Assembly: GCF_018131015.1 (NCBI RefSeq)
Contig: NZ_JAFCJJ010000008.1
Location: 1 to 64,000 of the forward strand
DNA: 64,000 nt
Source of the DNA: Bradyrhizobium diazoefficiens
GTDB lineage: Bacteria > Pseudomonadota > Alphaproteobacteria > Rhizobiales > Xanthobacteraceae
Reading direction: 5' to 3'
The notes under the pieces are model-generated. The model had not been told where the DNA came from, made no database searches, and saw only the letters and a list, made by a program, of their open reading frames with translations. Below, piece after piece: positions 9,951 to 26,563 of the stretch. A program made the position numbers and the translations under genes. Positions within the stretch are counted from its first letter, which is position 1; each line of letters opens with the position of its first letter.

Positions 9951-10949
9951 TCAGATCGTCGGATTCCAGGCCGACGGGACCAGGCGATATTTGGCGCCGT
10001 CCTTCTCGACGTGACCGACCGAGGGGAAGGTGAAGTGGAAGCCGACCACGGTCGCCTTCTCGGCCGCCGCCATGTCGTAGAACTTGTGGCGGGTCGCCTG
10101 CGCCGTCGTGGGGTCGATGTCGAAGGCGACGTGCCAGTCCGGATTGCGCAGAAACAGCTCCGGGATGTTGGTGACGTCGGACTGGATCAACACCTTCGCG
10201 TCGCCGGACGCGACCGCGAACGAGCTATGGCCGGGAGTGTGGCCGGGCGTCGCGATCGAGGTGATGCCGGGAGCGACCTCCTTGCCCCACTCGTATTTGG
10301 TGACCTTGGACTCGAGGCCGGCAAAGGTCTTCTTCACGTTGGCGAAGTAGTTCTTCATCATCGCGTTGGACTCGGCCTTGGCGGCATTGTCCTCGCTGGT
10401 CCAGAACTCCCAGTCCTTGCCCGGCACCATGATCTCGGCGTTCGGGAAGGCGAGCCCGCCGTCGGCCAGGCGAATGCCGTTGGTGTGGTCGGGGTGCAGG
10501 TGCGAGAGCAGCACGACGTCGATGCTCTTCGGGTCAACGCCGGCGGCGGCGAGATTTTGCAGGGTGCGGCCGACCGCGCCCTTGCTTGCCTCGAAATTCG
10601 CAATGCCGTTGCCGGCGTCGATCAGCACGAGCTTGGAGCCGGTGTTGATGAGCTGCGGATTGAACGGCACGGTCACCATGCCCTTCGGCATGTAGGCCGC
10701 GTCGGCCGCGGCAAGCGCCTCTTCCTTCGGCACGTTGACCACGAACTTGTCGGGCATCGGGAACGAGCGCGCGCCGTCGTTGATCGAGGTGCACTCGTAG
10801 GAGCCGACCTTGTAGCGATAGAAGCCCGGGGCCTGCGCCCCGCTTTGCGGCACTGCGGCATTGGCGGCGATCGGGCGGAGCCCGGTGACGGCGGCGGCGC
10901 TGACGGCTGCTGCGCCTGCGAGCAGGTGACGGCGATTGAGATCTGTCAT
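9951..10949 (-). CDS. Tat-exported metallo-beta-lactamase-fold hydrolase
   Basis: A 332-residue protein with a twin-arginine signal (NRRHLLAGAAAVSAAAVTGL, then AANA). The metal site is present: HLHPDH in the LLSHLHPDHTNGIRL segment, the histidine in GHTPGHSSF, the aspartate in IQSDVTN and a late GFHF. These bind two metal ions in hydrolases such as lactonases and lactamase-like enzymes. The N-terminal half contains an LIDAGNG strand typical of AHL-lactonase-like and alkyl-sulfatase-like relatives, but the substrate is unknown. AAGGGGAC seven bases before the ATG at 10949 supports this start over the one at 11030. Tat export suggests the metal site is loaded in the cytoplasm. Confidence 0.88.
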   Translation of the reverse strand: MTDLNRRHLLAGAAAVSAAAVTGLRPIAANAAVPQSGAQAPGFYRYKVGSYECTSINDGARSFPMPDKFVVNVPKEEALAAADAAYMPKGMVTVPFNPQLINTGSKLVLIDAGNGIANFEASKGAVGRTLQNLAAAGVDPKSIDVVLLSHLHPDHTNGIRLADGGLAFPNAEIMVPGKDWEFWTSEDNAAKAESNAMMKNYFANVKKTFAGLESKVTKYEWGKEVAPGITSIATPGHTPGHSSFAVASGDAKVLIQSDVTNIPELFLRNPDWHVAFDIDPTTAQATRHKFYDMAAAEKATVVGFHFTFPSVGHVEKDGAKYRLVPSAWNPTI

Positions 10950-11066
10950 GGCGTTGTCCCCTTCTGAGCCCCGCGGTTTGTCCGCGTTCGATGGCGGCGG
11001 GAATAATCTCCCGCTTGGCTCAGAAGGCAAGACCTCTTTTGGGCGGCCCGCCGCCGCACGTCACCA

Positions 11067-12200
11067 CTATTTATTTGGGTTGATGAGGAATTTTTCACCG
11101 GTGGCGCGTTTCGCGTAGACCGCGATGTTGGCCGGGTCGAGCGCCTCCTGGAGCGACACCACCTTGGTGTAGTGGCTGGCAAAGGTGGTCTTCAATTCGT
11201 CCACGACGCGCTGGCGCAGCCTGGCCCCGTCCGCCGGCCCGATCTGCATCAGGAACGGAAACAGCAGCCAGCCGCCGACGCCCCAGGCCATGCCGAAGCC
11301 GCGCGGCAGCTCGATCGGACGGATGTCGAGCGCGCCGTAGACATAGACCTGCTTGTACACGTTGGAGCCGTAGCGGCTGTATTCCTTCGCGGTCTTGTTG
11401 ATCGCGGCTTCCATGCAGTTGAGGATGTCGCCGGCAAGCTTGCCGCCGCCGATGGCGTCGAAGGCGATGGTGGCGCCGGTCTCGGCCAGCGCATTGGTGA
11501 GGTCGGCAAGGAAGCTCGGCGTCGTGGAATCGACGACGTATTTGGCGCCGATCTTGCGCAGGATGTCGGCCTGCTCCTTGCTGCGCACGATGTTGACCAG
11601 CGCAATGCCGTCCTTGATGCAGATCTTGTTCAGCATCTGCCCGAGATTGGAGGCGGCCGCGGTGTGCACCAGCGCCTTGTGGCCCTCGCGCCGCATGGTC
11701 TCGGTCATGCCGAGCGCAGTCAGCGGATTGACGAAGCAGGATGCGCCTTCCGCCGGCGTGGTGCCGTCCGGCAGCGGCAGGCACTCGCGCACCTTCAGGG
11801 TGCGGTACTGCGCATACATCGCACCGCCGATCATGGCGACGGTCTTGCCCATCAGCGCCTTTGCGGCGTCGGACGAGCCGGTCCTGATGACGATGCCCGC
11901 GCCCTCGTTGCCGACCGGCATGCTCTCGTCGAGCCGTCCGGCCATCGCCCGCATCGCGCCCTCCGGCACCTTCGCGGTGATGACGGGAGCATCCTTACCG
12001 CCCGAGGCCTTCGCCGTGCTCATGTCGGCCGCGCCGATCAGGAGCCCGAGGTCGGACGGATTGATCGGCGCCGCCTCGACGCGGACGACGACTTCGTCCG
12101 CCGCGGGTTCGGGGGTCGGCACGTCGAGCAGCGAGATTTCCAGCTCGCCGCTCTTCTTGATCAGCGAACGCAGTTGCAGTCCGGTCTTGCCGTCGCTCAT
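11067..12200 (-). CDS. Zinc-independent medium-chain dehydrogenase/reductase (quinone oxidoreductase-like)
   Basis: A 377-residue MDR-family protein. It has an N-terminal GroES-like catalytic domain (PTPEPAADEVVVRVEAAPIN, PVGNEGAGIV) and a Rossmann domain with VHTAAASNLGQMLNKI and KEQADILRKIGAKYVVDSTT. The cysteine and histidine ligands for catalytic or structural zinc are absent, which places it with NADPH-dependent quinone or enoyl reductases. The C-terminal part is longer than usual and hydrophobic (GMAWGVGGWLLFPFLMQIG). The frame runs upstream into eno, but MSDGKTGLQ at 12200 is 35 bp from the eno stop and starts the recognisable domain. The substrate is unknown. Confidence 0.85.
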   Translation of the reverse strand: MSDGKTGLQLRSLIKKSGELEISLLDVPTPEPAADEVVVRVEAAPINPSDLGLLIGAADMSTAKASGGKDAPVITAKVPEGAMRAMAGRLDESMPVGNEGAGIVIRTGSSDAAKALMGKTVAMIGGAMYAQYRTLKVRECLPLPDGTTPAEGASCFVNPLTALGMTETMRREGHKALVHTAAASNLGQMLNKICIKDGIALVNIVRSKEQADILRKIGAKYVVDSTTPSFLADLTNALAETGATIAFDAIGGGKLAGDILNCMEAAINKTAKEYSRYGSNVYKQVYVYGALDIRPIELPRGFGMAWGVGGWLLFPFLMQIGPADGARLRQRVVDELKTTFASHYTKVVSLQEALDPANIAVYAKRATGEKFLINPNK

Positions 12201-12235
12201 GTCGATCCTCCCGTATCCTTCGTTGAAGCGCCGGC

Positions 12236-14671
<2,436 letters not shown>

Positions 14672-14718
14672 AGGGAGCGCCATTTGCGTCCATCCCGCCG
14701 ACGGGGCAAAGCGCAAAA

Positions 14719-14739
14719 GGCCCGGCTTGGGACCGGGCC
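14719..14739 (+). terminator. GC-rich hairpin downstream of the beta-propeller gene
   Basis: GGCCCGG and CCGGGCC pair across a seven-base loop about 48 bp after the stop codon. There is no strong T-tract, so this is a weak or factor-assisted terminator. Confidence 0.5.
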
Positions 14740-15217
14740 CTCATTGCGCGCCATTCGCAGGCCAGGTTGAGGTGTGAGTTCAGAGGCCAAAGGAGCCACC
14801 GACCGCGAAACGCAGGCTTACGTTCGAGATGAGTAGCGTCATTTATTGACGCAATTGAGTCCTGGATCGGCCGCTCGCGAGGCTTTTCCGCACGCGGCGC
14901 GCGAATGTTGGTCGCCGCACGCCTACGCCGGGTAACTATCGCGATTTCGGAAGGTTGGAATAGCCGAAAGGGGTCGCCTTTCGGCGGCCCCTTACCGGTT
15001 GCAATTCTGTTTCGGGATAGGAAATTCCAGCCCCGGCGGACGTCATGTTAGAGGGCTCGAGAGGCCGGAGCGACCCCGATAAAATACTCAATACATTGCT
15101 GTCCTATTTTGTGGTCCCGAGTGGGGATTGGGACCGCCTCGATCCGGACGGTCGCGGCCGGTTGACGGCGGCGCCGTTTGCGTCCATCCCGGCAAGCCGA
15201 AACAGGATGCGACGACG
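14740..15217. other. Non-coding gap upstream of queF with several hairpins
   Basis: About 480 bp without a supported gene. It holds a small hairpin GCGTCA/TGACGC at 14836-14852. At 14964-14991 there are two overlapping stems that exclude each other: CCGAAAGG/CCTTTCGG, and GGGGTCGCC/GGCGGCCCC with one G-T pair. A 21-nt segment just before queF (15171-15191) repeats, with one mismatch, the segment at 14677-14697 after the propeller gene. A queF promoter should lie here, possibly in the A/T-richer part at 15075-15115. Confidence 0.5.
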
Positions 15218-15670
15218 ATGGCGAAGAAATCCCTCCAGCTCGGCCGTGCGGTCGAATGGCCGCACACGCCGGAAGAAGCCCAGCTCGACCGCGTGCCCAA
15301 TCCGCAAAAGGGCACCGACTATCTGGTGCGCTTCACCGTGCCGGAATTCACCTCGCTCTGCCCGGTGACGGGCCAGCCGGATTTCGCGCATCTGATGATC
15401 GACTACGCGCCGGGTGCGTGGCTCCTGGAGTCGAAGTCGTTGAAACTCTACATCGCGAGCTTCCGCAATCACGGCGCGTTCCACGAGGACTGCACCGTGA
15501 TGATCGGCAAGCGCATCGCAAGCGAGATCAAGCCGAAATGGCTGCGCATCGGCGGCTACTGGTATCCGCGCGGCGGCATCCCGATCGACGTGTTCTGGCA
15601 GACCGGACGGGTGCCGAAGGGCCTGTGGGTGCCCGAACAGGGCGTCGCGCCGTATCGCGGACGGGGCTAA
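15218..15670 (+). CDS. queF: NADPH-dependent 7-cyano-7-deazaguanine reductase
   Basis: QueF reduces the nitrile preQ0 to the amine preQ1 in queuosine biosynthesis for tRNA wobble position 34. The 150-residue protein is the short, single-domain type. It carries the catalytic cysteine C48 in [12 protein letters not shown], the conserved aspartate D55, and the QueF motif [16 protein letters not shown], with the HEDC substrate-binding segment after it. The start at MAKKSLQLG is preceded by AGGA; the frame is open 90 bp further up, but the added residues do not resemble the family. No other queuosine genes are in the window. The TAA stop overlaps the first bases of the repeat at 15669. Confidence 0.95.
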
Positions 15671-15793
15671 AGCGCGATGAGATTGGGATGAATCGTCATC
15701 GCGCTTTAGGTTGTTGTTTGCGCATAATCTCCGCGCAAACGCGTTCCGCGTTTGTCGCGAGGGAAAACCGCTCCGCACTTTTCCAGATCATGC
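15669..15793. repeat. Two-hairpin intergenic repeat, copy 2
   Basis: Same element as at 9792. AAAGCGCGATGA (15669-15680) pairs with TCATCGCGCTTT (15696-15707), followed by GCATAATC and GATCATGC at the far end (15722-15729, 15786-15793). This copy has an extra ~27-30 bp, including CGCGCAAACGCGTTCCGCG, inside the second module. It begins within the queF TAA and lies between the convergent queF and DyP genes, where it can serve as a bidirectional terminator. Confidence 0.85.
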
Positions 15794-15816
15794 TTTAAGG
15801 CGCGTCTTCGCGCGCC

Positions 15817-17433
15817 TCAGGCAACGGGCTCGGCGGTGAGCTGTTCGAGGCCCGTGATCGACGGCGAGAAGAAGTAGCCTCCACCCCTCGCAACGATGAA
15901 ATCCTGCATCTGCACCAGGCGGTGCGACTTCCCCTCCCCGTCGACGATCTCGATCGACGAAGCCGGCGCTCCCTCTTGCGGCCGGTGCCGGCCGAGAACG
16001 GCATCGCGGCCGCTTCCGACATGCGGCAGGTCGTCTCCATTGACCCAGTTCTGCATCAGGAACTCGAATTGCCGTTCGATCGACGCCTGGTAGGACACGA
16101 AGATGAGGCCGCGTTCCTTGCCGTCGTCGGCGGCGTGCCGGGGATCCGCGAACGCGGGACCGTAGGGAATCCCGCGCCTGACCAGCAGGTGGGTCAGCGT
16201 GTCGCCGGGCCCGCCGAGCTCGACCGCGTCGTCGCGGGGATTGACCTTGCGGATGTGGCCGGCGAACGGACAGATCGCTCCCTTCGGGTCGGCCTGCGAC
16301 AGCGGCAGATCAGGAAGCGGCGGCTGCGTCGCGACGAGCTGCGGCCTGGTTCCCGCAAGACGGAAGCGGAAATCGTTGGCGACACGATTGTCGGCCACGA
16401 ATTCCGGCCGGTCGGCATCGGGCGTCCGCGTGACCGGGGCGCCGGACCGCCACCGGCCGACCACGCGCGCGCCGACCCAGTCGATCGCGGCGTCGTCGGA
16501 GCGTCCCAGCACCTTGGCGGCACAGGATCGAATTTCGGCCCAGAATGCCGGCACGTCCTGCTGGAGCATGCGCAGCACCATGAATGAACCGTTCTTCGCC
16601 CAACCGACCTTCAAGGGGAAAGGCTGGTTCGGCTTGAGCGGATCCTGCCCGTTCTGTGTGGGCTGCCCGAGCAAAATCTGGCCCGGCCAAAGCAGGACCT
16701 GTCCCGGACGTCCGTAGCTTTTCGCGTCGGAAAGGGCCGGATCGATGATCCGCTCGACAATGAACTTGTCGGGCGAGCTCTTCGCCCGGCCCCGGATAGC
16801 GGGCTGGGAAACTCCGTCGCGAAAGCCGAAATGTTCGTGGCCGTTCAGCTCCCCGCCGAGCGTGTCTCCGACCAACTCGAACACCAGCTCCAACGCCGGC
16901 TTGCCGCCCGGTGTCTTGTGCGCGGCCATCCTGGCGTCGATGTCGCCGAGATAGGAGGCGATATCGGCCCGCTTGTCTCCGGCCACCGTCATGACCATGT
17001 CGATCGAGGGTGTCTTGAAGCCGCCGAACAGCCAGTTGGCGGGATGTCCCGGTTCGGCCTCGTCGAGCGGATCGCCCAGCAGGGGCGATCTGTCCGGCAA
17101 TCCTGCCTTGAATGCACCGTCGTCCACCGCATCGGCGATCGCGGCGGACGAAAGCTTGGCAAGGCCCGAATAGCTGAACGACAGATTCATCCAGGTCGCG
17201 CTCAGCCCCGAAGCTCCGGCGCGCTGTCTCTTGAGCGTCGCGCGGAGCCTGGCGTAAGCCTGGACGACGGCACTCGTGGACACGTCCGGCAACAGGTCTG
17301 CGATCGCGCTTCGCGCCGCCGCAGCGTCGACGATCGTAAAGCAACGGATCGTCTGATGGTCCTTGTTGAAGCCCGGATAGATGTTTCCCTGAATGTCGTC
17401 GAGATCGAGAATGGGCTCTTGCGTGGTGGTCAT
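15817..17433 (-). CDS. DyP-type heme peroxidase
   Basis: A 538-residue dye-decolorizing-type peroxidase. The distal GxxDG motif is GFRDG (203-207, catalytic D206), the proximal heme ligand is H393 in GHIRKVNPR, and a distal arginine lies in LLVRRGIPYG (about 419-420). DyPs use hydrogen peroxide to oxidise dyes, phenolics, lignin-like compounds or porphyrins. At this length it belongs with the large DyPs that carry insertions, not the ~300-residue EfeB or encapsulin-cargo types. No signal peptide is visible. The ATG is one base after the TGA of the upstream 735-residue gene, so the two are very likely translated together. No encapsulin gene is present. Confidence 0.93.
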   Translation of the reverse strand: MTTTQEPILDLDDIQGNIYPGFNKDHQTIRCFTIVDAAAARSAIADLLPDVSTSAVVQAYARLRATLKRQRAGASGLSATWMNLSFSYSGLAKLSSAAIADAVDDGAFKAGLPDRSPLLGDPLDEAEPGHPANWLFGGFKTPSIDMVMTVAGDKRADIASYLGDIDARMAAHKTPGGKPALELVFELVGDTLGGELNGHEHFGFRDGVSQPAIRGRAKSSPDKFIVERIIDPALSDAKSYGRPGQVLLWPGQILLGQPTQNGQDPLKPNQPFPLKVGWAKNGSFMVLRMLQQDVPAFWAEIRSCAAKVLGRSDDAAIDWVGARVVGRWRSGAPVTRTPDADRPEFVADNRVANDFRFRLAGTRPQLVATQPPLPDLPLSQADPKGAICPFAGHIRKVNPRDDAVELGGPGDTLTHLLVRRGIPYGPAFADPRHAADDGKERGLIFVSYQASIERQFEFLMQNWVNGDDLPHVGSGRDAVLGRHRPQEGAPASSIEIVDGEGKSHRLVQMQDFIVARGGGYFFSPSITGLEQLTAEPVA

Positions 17434-17434
17434 C

Positions 17435-19642
17435 TCACATCCGCCGCGTTGGCTTGTGGAAGTCAGTGAAGGCTGCCCCCGCCATCACCGCAGTCCGCGG
17501 CGGGTCACCGCAGTCAAACGCGGGATCGCTGATCGTCCCCTTGCCGTAAGCGACGCCGGTCAGCCCCATATCGATCACCTTGGCCACCTGGCCGCCCCAG
17601 CGGAGCGGAACGCCGCCGATCGACAGATCGCCGACGGTGAATTTCGACCCCTTCGGCGCCGCGAACACGCCGCGAAGGATGAATTCCTCCGATCCCCGCG
17701 CGACGGTGAACCAGTCCTGCGAGATCGGCTTCTTGTCCGGAGTGGTGAAGCCGACCAGCCGCGGCCGGCTCATGTACAGGCCGACGGGATCCTTGAGGGA
17801 GATGACATATCCGTCGCGGGCCAGCGCGTTGACAAGATCGCCGATATGCGGATCGCTGGCGCGCCCGCGATCACCGTAGTTTGCGCAGTCGATCAGATCC
17901 TGGGCCTCCGTCTTGAGTGATCCATCGGCGTTCTTCCGCAGAATGGTGGCGTCGCCGGCGATAACGATCTCGGCGAAGAGATTGTTGGAGGGCTGGATCA
18001 GATGCATCGCGCCGCGCGTCGTATTCCATACGTTCAGCGGGTTGTAGTTCTTGCCGGTGATGAGGTCGGGGAGCTTCACGTCGGGGCTGATGTGCTTCTG
18101 ATAGAGCGCAAGCAGGACCTTGGGCTCGTGCTCCGCGAGAAACCGCCAGTATTCGGGCCCCTCGCAGGTGAAGTCGACGCGGACGATCCTGCCGTCGTCG
18201 CCCCGCGTGACGAACCATTCCAGATATTCGTCCTGAGACTTCAAGCGGCCGAGGGATGTCCCCGAGATGACCTCGGCGCGGCGGAACTGCTCGTCGAGCG
18301 GCAGGCCGAGGTTCTCGAGCTTGCGCGGAAAGCCCGGCCATTTGATCGGCTGCTCGGCATGGTCGGGTGTGTTCGGGATGCCTCTCGTGGGATTGAAATA
18401 CTGGCTGGGAAGGCCCTTGAGATATTGCTGCGTCCGCTCGATCGCTTCATCGAAATCCTTGGACCGCTCGCTGCTCCACTTGGCAAACGAGTCCTTCTCC
18501 TTGAAATCCTTGAGATTGCCGGGCGGAGACAACACGATCCCGTTGCCGAAGGTCGGCGCCGTCGTTGCAGCCGTGGTCGGCCCCAGTGAAATGACCTCGG
18601 TCGCCGCGCCTGCGAGCGCCGCGGCCATCGCGAGGCCGGCGTGGGCGCCCGGAGCTTCCGGACCGTGGACGCGGTTGGACCACATCAGCTGGATCGGGAC
18701 TGTGTGCGGTTCAGCCGCGATCGTCACGCGCTTGAACACCCGTTCGAGGTCGGATCCGGCTTCACCGATCGGGAAGTCCCCGATCTCCTGGCCGCTGTTG
18801 GAATTCCATCCGATGAAGCGCAGATCACCGGTACGGATCGCGTCCTCGACGTCGGGATCGGTCCGCGCCTCGCAGAGCTCGTGGTAGAGCGTCGCGCAGA
18901 TGTTCTCCCAGGGCTCCCACCCCGAAATCGGAATTCCATTGTCGCCATCGGAGAACACCGCCGCGGCGTAGTAAACGGTAACGCCCCCGGTGGGACTCTG
19001 AATGTGGACGGAGCCGTGATAGCCGCCGAGACCGTTGCGCGAATCCTCCTCCTCCGCTTCCGGCGTACCCGGACGAGTGCGAGCAGCGCGAACGACGCGT
19101 TTGACGCGTTCGTTGCCGCCGCCGTCGCTGGACAGCACCGCGCGCGGAGGAAGCACGAAATTGATCAGCGTGGTCTTGAGGTCGAGCGCGGCGAGATTGC
19201 CCGACTTGAACAGGCGCTTGACCAGATTGTGGATGTCGCCCTTGTCGAAGGTGGCCTCGCCCGGAACGTCAAGAACGGCGGACGGCAAGGCCTTCGTCGT
19301 TATCGGCGCATTCCCGAAATATTGGGCGACGATGCCGTTCAGGCCGGGGTCCGACATCGCGGCGTCGATCGCAGCATCGAGCTTCTGGCGCGGGGCCGCG
19401 AGCGGAGCGCTGGCCCAGCCCTTGCCGAGATAGAACGTCTTGAAGCTCATATTCGGCATGGTGCGGCCGCCGCGAAACACCAGATCCTCCTTGGGAAAGG
19501 GCGGAAAGACCGCACCGCCTGCCCCTCCCTTCCCCTTCTTGGCCGCCGCCGCAGCAGCCGCGGCCGGCTGGCGCCGATCCTTGGCCTTGGGAGCTTTCAC
19601 GATGCTTTGGATGCGATGGGCGGGGGCGTATTGGTGTTGCAT
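17435..19642 (-). CDS. Large protein of unknown function with an HExxE metalloprotease-like site, DyP partner
   Basis: A 735-residue protein I cannot assign to a named family. Visible parts: an Ala/Lys-rich N-terminus (residues 17-45), an alpha/beta region, and a segment CATLYHELCEARTDPDVEDA with HExxE at 254-258, followed 27 residues later by GQEIGD (284-289). That combination resembles the metal site of putative proteases with an H-E-x-x-E-A-x-T-D-P motif. An Ala-rich linker (335-365) leads to a second region of ~350 residues of unknown fold, rich in Trp and Asn (NPLNVWNTTRGAMHLIQPS, GGVPLRWGGQVAK). There is no signal peptide or membrane helix. AGGAG five bases before the ATG supports the start. 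It is cotranscribed with the DyP gene. Confidence 0.85.
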   Translation of the reverse strand: MQHQYAPAHRIQSIVKAPKAKDRRQPAAAAAAAAKKGKGGAGGAVFPPFPKEDLVFRGGRTMPNMSFKTFYLGKGWASAPLAAPRQKLDAAIDAAMSDPGLNGIVAQYFGNAPITTKALPSAVLDVPGEATFDKGDIHNLVKRLFKSGNLAALDLKTTLINFVLPPRAVLSSDGGGNERVKRVVRAARTRPGTPEAEEEDSRNGLGGYHGSVHIQSPTGGVTVYYAAAVFSDGDNGIPISGWEPWENICATLYHELCEARTDPDVEDAIRTGDLRFIGWNSNSGQEIGDFPIGEAGSDLERVFKRVTIAAEPHTVPIQLMWSNRVHGPEAPGAHAGLAMAAALAGAATEVISLGPTTAATTAPTFGNGIVLSPPGNLKDFKEKDSFAKWSSERSKDFDEAIERTQQYLKGLPSQYFNPTRGIPNTPDHAEQPIKWPGFPRKLENLGLPLDEQFRRAEVISGTSLGRLKSQDEYLEWFVTRGDDGRIVRVDFTCEGPEYWRFLAEHEPKVLLALYQKHISPDVKLPDLITGKNYNPLNVWNTTRGAMHLIQPSNNLFAEIVIAGDATILRKNADGSLKTEAQDLIDCANYGDRGRASDPHIGDLVNALARDGYVISLKDPVGLYMSRPRLVGFTTPDKKPISQDWFTVARGSEEFILRGVFAAPKGSKFTVGDLSIGGVPLRWGGQVAKVIDMGLTGVAYGKGTISDPAFDCGDPPRTAVMAGAAFTDFHKPTRRM

Positions 19643-20104
19643 GATTGCTCCTCGTCAAAGAAACTCGGAAAAATTCAGCGCACGCAGGGCTGCTCGCAAG
19701 CTGGAGCACACAGGCTCCGCAACCGGCCTTCTGCGGCCGTTCGTATCGTGTGGTTGGTGAAGCGAGAAAAGCCGAGGCGAAATTGCCGGCTAGCGTTTCT
19801 TGCGCATCGTGGCCCACTCCAAAATGATCAGGTGGTCAATATCAGTCGGCACAGCGTCTCGGACGCACAGCCAGGAAAATAAAATGCTACAAATTGAAAA
19901 TGCAATGTCCAATTGTACAGGAGGGAGGTGCGGTGCGCAAGCTCTTGCTACACGCAGAGCGTGCCGCTTCGCATTTGGACGCAGCGCATTACACCGCAAC
20001 CGCGGCGTGCTGCGCTCCCGCATCGTGTTCATCACGCGCGGTATCGCGCGCGAAGAGGTGCTCGCGCTCTGGCAGGCAGGCCGCGCTGCCGCCTAGCGGT
20101 CCCG
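19643..20104. other. Gap upstream of the HExxE/DyP operon
   Basis: About 460 bp between the operon and the chemoreceptor gene. The half at 19780-19930 is clearly lower in GC than its surroundings (for example AAAATAAAATGCTACAAATT around 19877) and probably contains the operon promoter. Short plus-strand frames follow a GGAGGGAGG tract near 19920, but their products are Arg/Cys/Ala-rich and look non-coding. No hairpin terminator for either side was found. Confidence 0.5.
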
Positions 20105-22198
20105 TCAGGCGACCGCCCGCACCTTGCTGATGAACCCGTCCACCTCCGACGTCAGCGAGGTCGACTGGCTCGACAGATTGGCGGCGGCCTGCAGCACGCC
20201 GGAAGCGGCGCGGCCGGTTTCGTTGGCCGCCGACGACACGGTCGCGATGTTGCGGGTGACGGTCGAGGTCGCCTGCGCGGTGTTCTGCACGGTGCTGGCG
20301 ATCTCGGCGGTGGCCTTGTTCTGCTCCTCGATGGCGGCAGCGATGACGCGGTTGATGCTCGAGACTTCCTCGATGGTCCTGACGATGCCGTCGATGGCGG
20401 TCACCGCCTTCTGCGTCGCGCCCTGAATCTCGGTGATCTGGGTGCTGATCTCCTCCGTGGCCTTCGCCGTCTGCGACGCGAGGTTCTTCACCTCGCTTGC
20501 CACGACCGCAAATCCCCTGCCGGATTCGCCGGCGCGGGCCGCCTCGATGGTGGCGTTGAGCGCCAGCAGATTGGTCTGGCCGGCAATCGAGGTGATCAGG
20601 CCGATGACCTCGCCGATGCGATCGGCACCGTCGGCCAGCGCACGCATGGTGCCGTCGGTCTCCTTGACGGTGGCGACCGCCTGCTCGGTGGCGCGCGTTG
20701 CCTGCTCGACCTGGCGGTTGATCTCGCGGATGGAGGTGTTGAGCTCTTCGGCCGCGGCCGCGACGGTCTGCACGCCGTTGCCGACCTGATCGGCCAGGGT
20801 CGAGGCGGAGTCGGCCTGGGTCTGAGCCTCGGCAGCCGTGCCCGACATCGAGCGCGCCGTGGTCTCCAGCTCGCCCGAGGCGCTCGACAGCGTCTGCACC
20901 ATCTGGCCGATCCGGCTTTCGAACTGCCGCACGAGGCCGGACAATTCGGACGCACGCTTCTCCTTGTCGGCGCGCTCGGCGGCCTGGTCACCGGACAGGC
21001 GCTCGGCCTTGATCATGGCCTCCTTGAACACCTGGAGCGCGGCGGCCATGCGGCCGATCTCGTCCTTGCGGTCGAGGCCCGGCACCTCGCTTGCGAAATC
21101 CTGCGCGGCGAAGCGGGTCATGACGCCGGTGATCGCGGTCAGCGGCCTGGTCACGCGGTTGCGCATCAGCAGCACGCCGCCGATGGTCAGGGCCAGCGAG
21201 GCCGGCACCAGCAGACCGAACAGGATCAGGCTGATCCGCGAGCGCGACGCGCCGTCCTCGGCGCGCGAGATCATGTTGGCGAGCGCGGCTTGGGTGACCT
21301 TCACGAGATTGTCGGCGCCCGCAAGCTGACGGTCGCGATATTCGATCCCGACGACGCCTGGAGGCTCGCCGGCGAGCAGCCGGGTCGCAACGCTGTTGCG
21401 CTCGTCGTTCAGGGCGCCGGAGATTTCCGGCTGGGCATCGCGGATCGCCTGCAGCAGCTCGGGCGATGCGACGTTCGGGCCGAGATCCTTCACGACCAGC
21501 CAGGACTGCTGGATGCGGCCGCGCAGGTCGGCAAAGACGACGCCATCGGCGGCGGTCCAGCTCTTGTTGGCGAGGATCGTGGAGAACGTGACCAGAATGG
21601 TCTGGCCGGCATTGGCGCGGGCCTGCCAGGCGGCCTGCTTGGCGATCAGGAGGCGGTCGACCACGGGATCGAGCAGCGTCATCGCATCGTCCACATGGGC
21701 GGTGACCTCGCCGATCGCCTCCATATAGGCATCGCTGGTCTTGGCCCAGGCCGGCGTCAGGCTGGGCTCGCGCGCGGCCTTCTCCTGCTTCAGCGCCGTC
21801 ACCGAGCGCGGGCGCAGCTCTTCGAGCTGGGCCCAGATGCCGCGCAGCTTCTCGAGCTTCTCGGCAAGGCCCGGCGCCTCCACGGTCGAGAGGCTTTGCA
21901 GGGCCTGCGCGTAGTTCTTCCGCGCCGTCGCGCGCATGTCGTCGAGTTTCGTCATGATCGCCTCGGGAGCGGCCGGTGCACCGGCGAGATAGCTCAGCGT
22001 GTCGCCACGCTCGAGGCGGAAGATGACCAGTGCATTGGTGAGGTCGCGGCTCGCGACCGCCAGCGAAACGATGCGGTTGCTGTCGGAGTAGCGCGTGACC
22101 GCCAGCTTCAGCGCATAGGCGCAGATGACGACAAGGACGAGTCCGAGGGACCCGACCACCGCCCCGAGGACACGGGCGACCGAACGCTGGTTTTGCAT
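20105..22198 (-). CDS. Methyl-accepting chemotaxis protein
   Basis: A 697-residue transmembrane chemoreceptor. A first membrane helix (about residues 9-30, [20 protein letters not shown]) is followed by a long helical periplasmic sensor domain (about 31-320), a second membrane helix, a HAMP domain ([20 protein letters not shown]) and a cytoplasmic signalling domain. The signalling hairpin tip is clear ([20 protein letters not shown]). It would couple to CheA/CheW and control flagellar motion. The open frame extends to 22303, but [12 protein letters not shown] at 22198 places the first helix normally. The ligand is unknown. No che genes are nearby. The protein ends without a CheR-docking pentapeptide. 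Confidence 0.92.
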
Positions 22199-22338
22199 CG
22201 ACTGATCCAAGATGTTGCTGCCAATTCGCGGCTTGCGGGAATCTACGGATCGAAGAATGAGGTTTGATTTAAGATTTGCAGGAATCGGCCGCCATCTCTC
22301 CACGGAGAAATACGGGGTTTGGTAGCGCAGTACTTCCG

Positions 22339-23547
22339 TCAGGCCCGCGCGTCGGAGGGTGCCCGCTGCTTGAGCAGTTTGGCGCAGGCGAGGCCCAGCA
22401 CCACCATGATCGCAGCGCTCGCAAGCAGGGTCGGCACCTTGCCGCCATGCGCGAGGCCGAGCCCGTAGGCAAGTGGTCCGACCGTCTGTCCCATGAAAAA
22501 GAAGAACGAATGCAGCGACAGCGCGGTAGCGCGCGCCTCGACCGAGAGCTCGCTGGCAAAAACCTGGAGGCAGCCATGGGCCATGTAGAAGCCCCAGCCC
22601 ATCACGATGAGGTTGAGGGTCTGCATCTCCCAGCGCGGCCCGAACGCGACGGCGACGAGTTGCGAGGCGACCAGCGTCATGCCGGCGATCATCATGCCCC
22701 TGACGCCGAGCCGCGGCAGGAAGCGCGACACGGTCATGGTGTAGAACAGGCCGCCGACCGCAAAGCCCGCGATCACGATGCCGGCGATCGAGAGCGAGGT
22801 CTGGCCGAGGTCGAACAGGAACGAGGCGATATAGGGAAACAGGCCGAGCACGCAGCAGCCCTCGACGAACACCGCCGCATAGCAGACATAGGCGTTCGGA
22901 TTGGTGAAGATGGTGCGATAGCCGGCCTTCAGCGCCGACAGGCTCGTCTTCGGCGGATGCTTGACCCTGGCGCCGCGAAAGCCGGCCGCGACCGCGATCG
23001 AGGCTGCGATGACGAGCGCGCCGAGCACCGCCAGCACGCCGCGCCAGCCGAGGAAGTCGCCGATCAGGCCGGAGGCCGAGGCGCCCAGCAGATTGCCGGT
23101 CATCGCCCCCGCAAGCGTGCGGCTGATCGCGACCTGGCGTTTCTCCGGACCGACCAGGTCGCTGGTCAGGCTCAGCGCCACCGGAAACACGCCGCCGGAG
23201 CCGATGCCGGCGATGATGCGGGTCGCGAACAGCAGCGGGAACGAGGTCGAGAACGCGCCCAGGATGTTGGCAAGGCCGAGCAGCGCAAGGCAGCCGATCA
23301 TCAGCCGTGTCTTGCCGAACAGATCGGCGGCGGCGCCAATCACCGGCTGGATGATCGCGAAGGTGAAGGCGAACACCGCGGCAAAGCCGGCGGCGGTCGC
23401 GATGCTGACGCCGAAATCCTCGGCGACGTGCGGCAGCACCGGATCGAGCGCGCGCGCCGAGAGCGCCGCGGCGAAGCTTGCACCGGAGATGACGTAGAGC
23501 GCCGCCGGCAAGCCGTGATCGTGCGGCCGCGCCTCGCCTTGCTGCAT
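22339..23547 (-). CDS. Major facilitator superfamily transporter
   Basis: A 402-residue inner-membrane protein with about twelve hydrophobic segments. Residues from about 17 to 190 form the first six-helix bundle, with [12 protein letters not shown] between helices 2 and 3 as the MFS signature loop, and [20 protein letters not shown] further on. It resembles the drug/arabinose-efflux branch of the superfamily. The ATG shares its A with the TGA of kdsA (TGATG), so translation is coupled to kdsA. That makes export or import linked to envelope sugar metabolism conceivable, but the substrate cannot be inferred. Confidence 0.9.
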
Positions 23548-24425
23548 CAGCGCGGGTTCTTTGCGAGCGCGTCGAACGCCATCAGGTTGCGGATCAGCCC
23601 TTCGAACTCGCGCAGCGGCACCATGTTGGGCCCGTCGGACGGCGCGCGGTCCGGATCCGGATGGGTTTCGATGAAGACGCCGGCGACACCGACCGCCACC
23701 GCCGCGCGCGCGAGCACCGGCACGAATTCGCGCTCGCCTCCGGACGAGGTCCCCTTCCCGCCCGGCTGCTGCACCGAATGGGTGGCATCGAAGATCACGG
23801 GCGCACCGGTGGTGCGGGCCATGATCGGCAGCGCGCGCATGTCGGAGACCAATGTGTTGTAGCCGAAGGAGGCGCCGCGCTCGGTGACGAGCACGTTGGG
23901 ATTGCCCGCGCCCGTGATCTTGGCGACGACATTGGCCATGTCCCAGGGCGCCAGGAACTGGCCCTTCTTGACGTTGACGACCTTGCCGGTGGCGGCCGCA
24001 GCCAGCAGCAGATCGGTCTGCCGGCACAGGAAGGCCGGGATCTGCAGCACGTCCGCGGCCTGCGCCACCTCGGCGCATTGCGCGGCGTCGTGCACGTCGG
24101 TCAGCACGGGCAGGCCCAGCGCGGAACGGATCTCGGCGAAGATCGGCAGCGACTGCGTCAAGCCGAGGCCGCGCGCGGCCGAGGCGCTGGTGCGGTTGGC
24201 CTTGTCGAAGGAGGTCTTGTAGACGAGGCCGACCTTGAGGCGCGCGGCGATCTCCTTCAGCGCGGAAGCCACCTCCAGCGCATGCTGGCGGCTCTCGAGC
24301 TGGCAGGGTCCTGCAATGATCGAGATCGGCAACTCGTTGCCGAACCTGACCGTGCCAATGGTGACGACCGGCGCCGCTGACTGCGAAGAGCTCAAGGCCA
24401 AATACCCTCGTTTCGCCGCGACCAT
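23547..24425 (-). CDS. kdsA: 3-deoxy-8-phosphooctulonate synthase
   Basis: Condenses phosphoenolpyruvate with arabinose 5-phosphate to make KDO 8-phosphate for lipopolysaccharide. The frame gives 292 residues, with [14 protein letters not shown], the [17 protein letters not shown] loop, [16 protein letters not shown], and [12 protein letters not shown]. The cysteine in IAGPC is the metal ligand of the metal-dependent class; E. coli-type enzymes have asparagine there. The true start may be a few codons inside the frame, since [10 protein letters not shown] precedes the region that usually begins these proteins. It overlaps the MFS gene by one base and lies downstream of the NIPSNAP and pyrG genes. 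Confidence 0.95.
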
Positions 24426-24510
24426 AGCGGCGATGAGGGGCGGATCAACCCTATTCCGCCCGTGGCCGTTCGAATATCAGGGTTGCGCCGGGCAGCCGCG
24501 CCGGCGGGCG

Positions 24511-24837
24511 CTATTTCACCGAGGAGAAGGCGGTGGGCGTCAGGATCTGGCTGACGATGTTGGCGAGGATCTGGCCGTCGGCCTCGGACTTTGCCCGCGC
24601 ATCGATCCAGTCCGGATCGCTCTGGAACGCGGTCCACTTCTTCTCGCGCTCGGCAAGCGACTCCCAGGCCAGGAAATAGGTCAGCTCCTGGTTGGACTCG
24701 CCGATCAGGGTGGTGAAGAATCCGGCCTGCCGGATGCCGTGCTTCTCCCAAATCTTCAGCGTCGCCGTCTCGAACCGCTTCAGCAGCGCCGGCAGGCGGC
24801 CGGGCAAACAGCGATAGACGCGCATTTCGTAGATCAT
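24511..24837 (-). CDS. NIPSNAP-family protein
   Basis: A 108-residue alpha/beta-barrel ferredoxin-like protein. It has the characteristic start MIYEMRVYRCLPGRLPALLK and the core IGESNQELTYFLAWESLAER, with the W...F...DPDW pattern near the middle. NIPSNAP proteins form dimers; their bacterial functions are poorly known and range from monooxygenase-like to structural roles. AGGGAG ahead of the ATG is a good ribosome binding site. It lies between pyrG and kdsA on the same strand, with gaps of 82 and 85 bp. Confidence 0.9.
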   Translation of the reverse strand: MIYEMRVYRCLPGRLPALLKRFETATLKIWEKHGIRQAGFFTTLIGESNQELTYFLAWESLAEREKKWTAFQSDPDWIDARAKSEADGQILANIVSQILTPTAFSSVK

Positions 24838-24919
24838 CGGACTTCACTCCCTGCCTTGTTGTTCTTGCGGCAGGGAGTTGTCGCAACAAACGGTGCGATC
24901 GTCAAAGGGAGAGAACGCG

Positions 24920-26563
<1,644 letters not shown>

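Follow-up and report, generated by a model that had tools for sequence, protein, structure and literature searches.

A coupled DyP-type peroxidase and its two-domain partner in Bradyrhizobium diazoefficiens point to a family of enzyme pairs

A coupled gene pair and its constant C-terminal domain

The window analyzed here, a 64,000-nucleotide stretch of Bradyrhizobium diazoefficiens contig NZ_JAFCJJ010000008.1, carries on its minus strand a gene for a DyP-type peroxidase and, immediately upstream of it, a gene for a 735-amino-acid partner protein. Our best reading is that the constant member of this oxidative pair is the C-terminal domain of the partner (the C domain) and that its companion, here the DyP, is exchangeable; the comparisons point to an undescribed family of enzyme pairs. 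We tentatively favor a two-gene oxidative unit in which the C domain and its companion act as one two-part enzyme.

The partner open reading frame (ORF; positions 17435 to 19642, minus strand, 735 amino acids, ATG to TGA) comes first in the direction of transcription. The DyP ORF (15817 to 17433, minus strand, 538 amino acids, ATG to TGA) begins 1 base downstream; a single base at 17434 (minus strand) separates the partner TGA from the DyP ATG, so translational coupling is likely from the sequence. This spacing, already reported in the first-pass annotation, recurs: a possible DyP start lies within 8 nt of the partner stop in 16 of 18 homologous pairs, the exceptions being L004 (262 nt) and L057 (239 nt).

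The first-pass annotation treated the partner as a putative metalloprotease-like protein of unknown fold. It matched no Pfam or NCBIfam family up to E 1, and a PDB sequence search matched no chain. A protein search of species genomes with the partner returned 61 loci, and the whole protein was matched in 4 of 100 relatives, the window's own genome included. Outside the window, the N- and C-terminal halves are separate genes and most loci have one only; judged by these comparisons, the partner is therefore a fusion of an N family and a C family.

The C domain (residues 368 to 735; 17438 to 18541, minus strand) ends in a Thr-Arg-Arg-Met tail and is common to loci with three kinds of companion: DyP, a protein family that we call F550, and a CxxCH-type protein. 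We surveyed it in 68 loci from species genomes, relatives, and plasmids. Repeat fetches were dropped (L068, which is the place of L105, before counting; L001, L063-L067, L069, L081, L088, L094-L100, L102, and L103 as repeat, shorter, or partial fetches), and some near-copies were kept (e.g., L070/L115, L027/L077, and L040/L042). The gene adjoining C was F550 in 43 loci, DyP in 18, and CxxCH-type in 4, with a contig end in the remaining 3. One of these companions was present in all 65 loci that could be judged, and two kinds within 1.5 kb of C were found in none of the 68. F550 lies upstream of C in 42 of 43 loci; DyP lies downstream on the same strand in 18 of 18. Plasmid records with C number 25 (13 with F550, 7 with DyP, and 5 others); the C match is within 160 bp of F550, measured by match ends, in all 13 F550 records. 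Of the five others, one Paracoccus record and that of S. sojae were read, and three Paracoccus records were taken as copies on the basis of size and identity.

F550 proteins (approximately 550 amino acids; e.g., L006:7740-9401, with members in 42 other loci) gave no Pfam, NCBIfam, or PDB match in the members tested. A fairly confident F550 model (pLDDT 83) had no PDB match, with a best VIA Z of 3.4. We rejected two identities for this family: a divergent DyP (the DyP profile failed E 1e-5 on F550 genes, and there was no PDB match) and a relative of the haem-binding FMP-type protein (hhalign probability 0.3%, profile versus single sequence). The window's genome yielded no F550 match, in a search that lacked a working positive control. 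In L034 and L079, F550 and C occupy one open frame, annotated in L079 as a single coding sequence; because they share a reading frame, the two probably act together physically in these loci. By analogy, DyP and C would be expected to do the same.

The CxxCH neighbor was read in three of four loci (L075:7292-8800, L105:7445-9094, and L104:4133-5773). These are related proteins of approximately 500 to 550 amino acids, without a Pfam family, that start with a hydrophobic stretch at the N terminus and carry a single CxxCH close to the C terminus; they stand beside another C subfamily. For L109, the assignment to this type comes from its C-tree placement and from the length and location of the next ORF rather than from a match. 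A tyrosinase lies on the other side of C in L075 and L105.

Across the 68 aligned rows, D471, E472, Y473, W476, E494, Y498, Y514, N537, H547, N553, D597, P598, R649, and G650 are kept wherever the column is present, as is W435. C711 occurs in 66 of 66 rows that reach its column and C586 in 66 of 68 (Ala in L073 and Asn in L074). Because these residues are invariant or nearly so across the alignment, the C domain looks more like an enzyme than a scaffold. Past a variable linker, Arg occurs among the last five residues in 51 of 58 proteins with C as the last domain, versus 23% of 43 F550 proteins, 14% of 37 DyPs, and 53% of 1657 six-frame ORFs, the last figure being inflated by spurious ORFs.

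Some loci hold further genes. A phospholipase D-like domain is joined to C in L028:9998-12487 and L080:6022-8502, beside F550 and a subtilase. A trypsin-like peptidase with an effector-associated domain (EAD1) follows the F550-C genes of a planctomycete assembly (L010:14236-15780), and an Anaerolineae assembly has in L049:8518-13494 a YcaO/SagD-type gene, C, DyP, and the start of a subtilase-like gene. On Mycetohabitans plasmids (L070 and L115), a GH108 lysozyme-type gene and a small gene just 5' of C-DyP could be a release cassette.

The linked peroxidases form one clade

The DyP of the window belongs to the DyP-type peroxidase superfamily (TIGR01413, 135.5 bits with a cutoff of 100.5) and exceeds the cutoffs of two Pfam models (PF21105, 67.5 with a cutoff of 27.5; PF20628, 35.3 with a cutoff of 20). 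Its best PDB sequence match is 7anv, an ancestral D-type DyP according to its depositors (E 7e-68), on which we tentatively call it D-type-like. It carries D206 (in GFRDG), H393, and R419, which we take to be the Asp of the GxxDG motif, the proximal His, and the distal Arg; their positions agree with the 7anv alignment. All three occur in 37 of 37 aligned DyP rows (36 distinct; 17 linked to C and 20 unlinked). In the same alignment, other positions set the linked clade apart, among them F22, R228, Q449, P470, and T516. By its active-site residues the peroxidase looks intact, and haem binding and H2O2-dependent activity are predicted. No signal peptide was seen by eye.

Encapsulin-associated and EfeB-type DyPs are superfamily enzymes with a genomic partner, and the first-pass annotation held that the partner described here is neither of these associates. 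Our results agree. The window DyP scores far below the EfeB cutoff (TIGR01412, 31.9 bits versus 428), which rejects an EfeB deferrochelatase/peroxidase identity. An encapsulin cargo was also rejected: the neighbors are the partner, a queF-like ORF, and a chemotaxis-receptor-like ORF (the latter two named by eye), a statement about adjacent genes, the whole genome being unsearched for encapsulin.

Quick maximum-likelihood trees with SH-aLRT support only place all 17 full-length linked DyPs in a single clade (SH-aLRT 98) that excludes the 20 unlinked rows (of which 19 are distinct, L093 and L108 being the same gene entered twice). The unlinked rows outside the clade include the second DyP of the window's genome; the truncated DyP of L106 counts among the 18 DyP loci and was left out of the tree. 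Linked DyPs come from Pseudomonadota, Acidobacteriota, Actinomycetota, Cyanobacteriota, and Chloroflexota. An unlinked DyP lies approximately 5.7 kb from the F550-C pair in L013, and L009 carries an unlinked DyP besides its linked one. Pairwise distances of C and DyP are correlated (Mantel r 0.85, n = 17), also after near-copies are dropped (r 0.70, n = 15), with permutation p ≤1e-4 in each case; part of this correlation would follow from common descent of the linked pair alone.

We also searched from the DyP side. Among plasmids, 82 records matched (60 of them listed), and the top seven by coverage times identity all carry C. The eighth, from Methylobacterium bullatum, has no C, and the other matches listed are likewise not among the 25 C records; the M. 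bullatum DyP falls just outside the linked clade. In the class sample, 12 of 385 genomes had a DyP match, and C stood alongside only in the window's genome (1.5-kb flanks judged). The first-pass annotation had proposed counting how often the partner lies beside DyP genes, with homologs mostly lacking one counting against a dedicated pairing. The pairing does recur, in 18 C-DyP loci of five phyla. By that count, relatives of the partner mostly lack a DyP (for the C half, 18 of 65 judgeable loci have one), whereas the linked DyPs are one clade and the seven top-ranked plasmid records all carry C beside DyP.

Genes for H2O2-forming oxidases are found near some DyP-type loci: genes of the flavin amine oxidase type (L107), an oxidase annotated as SolA type (L072, from a Bradyrhizobium barranii strain), a LodA (L070), and a LodA_C/ferritin-like protein (L071). 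A C-linked DyP on a Sinorhizobium plasmid (L073:6989-10513) extends into leucine-rich repeats, to 1174 amino acids.

The N-terminal domain and the history of the locus

The N domain (residues 1 to 345; 18608 to 19642, minus strand) contains a predicted metzincin fold at residues 62 to 326, an HExxE motif at 254 to 258 (HELCE; codons at 18869 to 18883, minus strand, read from the sequence), and E286-I-G-D. The HExxE motif named in the first-pass annotation is not a chance occurrence, because H254, E255, and E258 show no variation across the 11 rows of the N-domain alignment. In a joint alignment of N and C proteins (A2), 8 N rows align at HExxE, although 6 of these run into the C domain at their C-terminal ends; A2 replaced a first joint alignment, rejected because it placed N-only proteins on the C domain.

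An AlphaFold2 model of the whole partner has a mean pLDDT of 75 and a pTM of 0.50. Foldseek with this model gave 9o54 (ADAM17) as the best and only match below 0.001 (E 9.6e-4). In the 50 rows shown, VIA-align over residues 62 to 326 gave Z of 8.4 to 10.0, with rmsd of 3.2 to 4.8 and 151 to 184 residues aligned; all of these were metalloproteinase-type entries except 6o38, titled as a chaperone-substrate complex. PDB and viral fold searches of the whole partner gave only the N domain or nothing above background. On the predicted model, then, the N domain has a metzincin fold, which bears out the earlier description of the HExxE region as metalloprotease-like. The zinc signature of metzincins is HExxHxxGxxH/D; unlike them, the N domain has HELCEARTDPD, with Glu at the second ligand position in 11 of 11 rows, and protease activity is uncertain. 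CLCA1 is a self-cleaving HExxE protease with some resemblance to metzincins, according to the excerpt available (PMC12989442), and it is likened to the N domain by description only. An EXORDIUM/PHI-1 reading of the partner, suggested by HExxE resemblance, was rejected, with no Pfam family up to E 1.

Profile searches found N-domain genes in 16 loci, including the window. A C-domain gene lies within 7 kb in five of them: the window, L027, L060, L024, and L009. The two are fused in the window, and L027 and L060 have N, F550, and C in that order on one strand, the N match of L060 being partial; N and C are on opposite strands in L024, and L009 has an N piece of 97 positions approximately 6 kb from C. 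The N domain was found in 1 of 385 genomes of the class sample, namely the window's own, and the C domain in 3 of 398 phylum-sample genomes, the window's among them. Because both are rare, the five N-C encounters seem unlikely to be chance. The first-pass annotation had put its emphasis on the HExxE part, and this shifts: that half occurs with a DyP only in the window and L009 of the 16 loci, and it is the C half that accompanies DyP.

Family searches took in one or more neighbors of 10 of the 15 other N loci; the rest were read as ORF lists only. Some neighbors are redox genes: galactose-oxidase-like (L024 and L060), multicopper oxidase (L027), and haem-binding FMP-type protein (L055). Others are ordinary: an aminotransferase and a DUF1800 protein (L043), a fructose-bisphosphatase/guanylate kinase frame (L051), an ArsC-type protein (L054), and an amidohydrolase (L058). 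In two Pseudonocardiales assemblies, the N domain, with its HExxE, directly adjoins the galactose-oxidase-like kelch protein (L024:3775-7043 and L060:476-3312).

The C tree places the F550-linked rows in a single group (99), with one contig-end row inside it, and the CxxCH-linked rows in another (99); DyP-linked rows are scattered over the remaining branches. The topology is consistent with an older DyP companion that was later exchanged. With midpoint rooting only and a number of long branches (L072, L074, L071, L073, and others), that order is not proven.

The pair sits downstream of queF, at a site (15678 to 20110) that is variable among relatives. Twelve same-genus relatives had a queF match; five were read at length, and none of these five carries the module here. 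In three, the chemotaxis gene is absent as well, and sequence found beyond that gene in the window lies within approximately 0.7 kb of queF; in the other two, the chemotaxis gene is separated from queF by other genes. The simplest reading is that the module was gained in the lineage of the window, most likely by horizontal acquisition of the two-gene unit. No tRNA gene was found within 10000 to 26000.

The leader (19643 to 19911, minus strand) contains a GAGGAG at 19648 to 19653, five bases 5' of the partner ATG, which we judged by eye to be Shine-Dalgarno-like. The lower GC from which the first-pass annotation suggested a promoter is real (55% at 19700 to 19999 versus 59 to 72% in the remaining profile steps), but a scan of 15600 to 20110 gave a single weak promoter-like match (19911 to 19884), which is background (0.6 ± 0.9 expected).

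Possible modes of action and comparison with known systems

As a two-part enzyme, the pair might work as follows. The DyP, which has no visible signal peptide, would be made together with the partner, and the C domain would bind its companion so that both act as one enzyme. The peroxidase, fed by H2O2, would supply one-electron oxidation, and the C domain may receive this oxidation or direct it onto a specific substrate; the invariant Asp, Glu, Tyr, Trp, and His and the near-invariant Cys of C look catalytic. F550 and the CxxCH protein would be oxidants too. In the window's genome, the rare metzincin-like domain would be a third, fused part.

Several observations weigh against this explanation. 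A physical DyP-C complex is only inferred, because no DyP-C fusion was found among the surveyed loci. F550 is not established as an oxidant, and two DyP-linked C domains lack C586. The fold of C did not emerge: the PDB fold search of the partner was filled by the N domain, and the C profile found nothing. No H2O2-forming oxidase was recognized among the ORFs flanking the window module. By bit score, the unlinked M. bullatum DyP ranks sixth, above two linked ones. The DyP-first searches revealed no C-less DyP inside the clade, with cover limited to plasmids and a one-class sample; such DyPs could be under-sampled because most linked loci were first found via the partner. C may be a co-enzyme, an oxidized client, or an escort.

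The client reading is the next most probable, though we consider it rather unlikely. Here C would be an enzyme with a cofactor made from its own Tyr, Trp, and Cys, and DyP, F550, or a tyrosinase-CxxCH set would be the dedicated maturase. A constant C domain with exchangeable, unrelated companions would suit this, as would the near-invariant Tyr, Trp, Cys, and His and the LodA, FAD monooxygenase or halogenase, galactose-oxidase-like, and amine-oxidase genes near some C or N genes. There are precedents in the excerpts seen of two papers: the DyP DtpA is needed for GlxA maturation at low copper (PMC4736821), and the quinone of LodA requires LodB (PMC4417212). Against it, C586 is missing in L073 and L074, no modification of C has been seen, the window DyP has no Tat signal by eye, unlike DtpA, and neither F550 nor the CxxCH protein is known as a maturase. 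Its boldest form, in which C founds a new enzyme class with a cofactor from its own side chains, matured by a recruited companion (DyP on the older branches, the tyrosinase/CxxCH set, or F550 as a new kind of oxidant of no known fold), seems to us less likely again.

We give a slightly lower chance to C being an adaptor that would gather enzymes, both oxidative and hydrolytic, at a single site or export them, as part of an arsenal aimed at competitors or hosts. Consistent with such a role are the domains fused to C (metzincin-like in the window, phospholipase D-like in L080 and in L028, whose record is also that of L069), the short Arg-containing tail (51 of 58), and the S8, S53, M4, M20, and C25 peptidase, lipase, and GH108 genes near several loci. 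But the constant neighbor of C is DyP, F550, or the CxxCH protein rather than a hydrolase, C is conserved in enzyme fashion, the neighbors were read in a chosen subset of loci with no background count, and the six-frame control for the tail itself reaches 53%, spurious ORFs inflating it. Least probable is shared regulation only, with two independent enzymes of one stress or detoxification response in a co-opted operon and no direct contact: the missing DyP-C fusion and the differing order (DyP downstream, F550 upstream in 42 of 43) would agree with it, but restriction to one clade, correlated divergence, and near-zero spacing over five phyla exceed what regulation needs.

Two known systems are among the closest to the window's pair. 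In Streptomyces, DtpA is a DyP that serves one partner, for maturation of the radical copper oxidase GlxA (PMC4736821, seen in excerpt), and galactose-oxidase-like genes adjoin the N domain in L024 and L060. Unlike GlxA, the window partner has no kelch domain or other Pfam family, and neither window protein has a Tat signal by eye. We rejected a GlxA identity for the partner on the absence of kelch/galactose-oxidase domains by Pfam; no galactose-oxidase-like gene was detected in the window's genome, in a search whose 14 controls were all silent too. LodA-LodB and GoxA-type quinoproteins likewise comprise an oxidase with its own oxidative maturase gene, in operons with tyrosinase, multicopper oxidase, and ferritin-like genes (PMC4417212, as far as the excerpt goes), and L070 and L077 have LodA genes in the vicinity of C. 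Unlike LodA, the partner belongs to no Pfam or NCBIfam family, and the LodA-like genes and tyrosinase of the window's genome are on other contigs. One LodA-like gene and the tyrosinase lie close together there (G000:C15:62352-65816; L140 and L143), with a second LodA-like gene on C2.

Searches of the open-access literature gave no description of the DyP-partner pairing; subscription papers and preprints were outside their scope. Of the two roles suggested in the first-pass annotation, oxidative modification is possible from the sequences, and a defence system is without direct support.

We know of no established natural job for most bacterial DyPs. A DyP clade with one co-diverging partner offers a direct handle on this question, since the partner should reveal the substrate or client. 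The C domain also flags F550 and the CxxCH protein, two more proteins that match no Pfam family, so that one biochemical answer could explain three gene families in several phyla.

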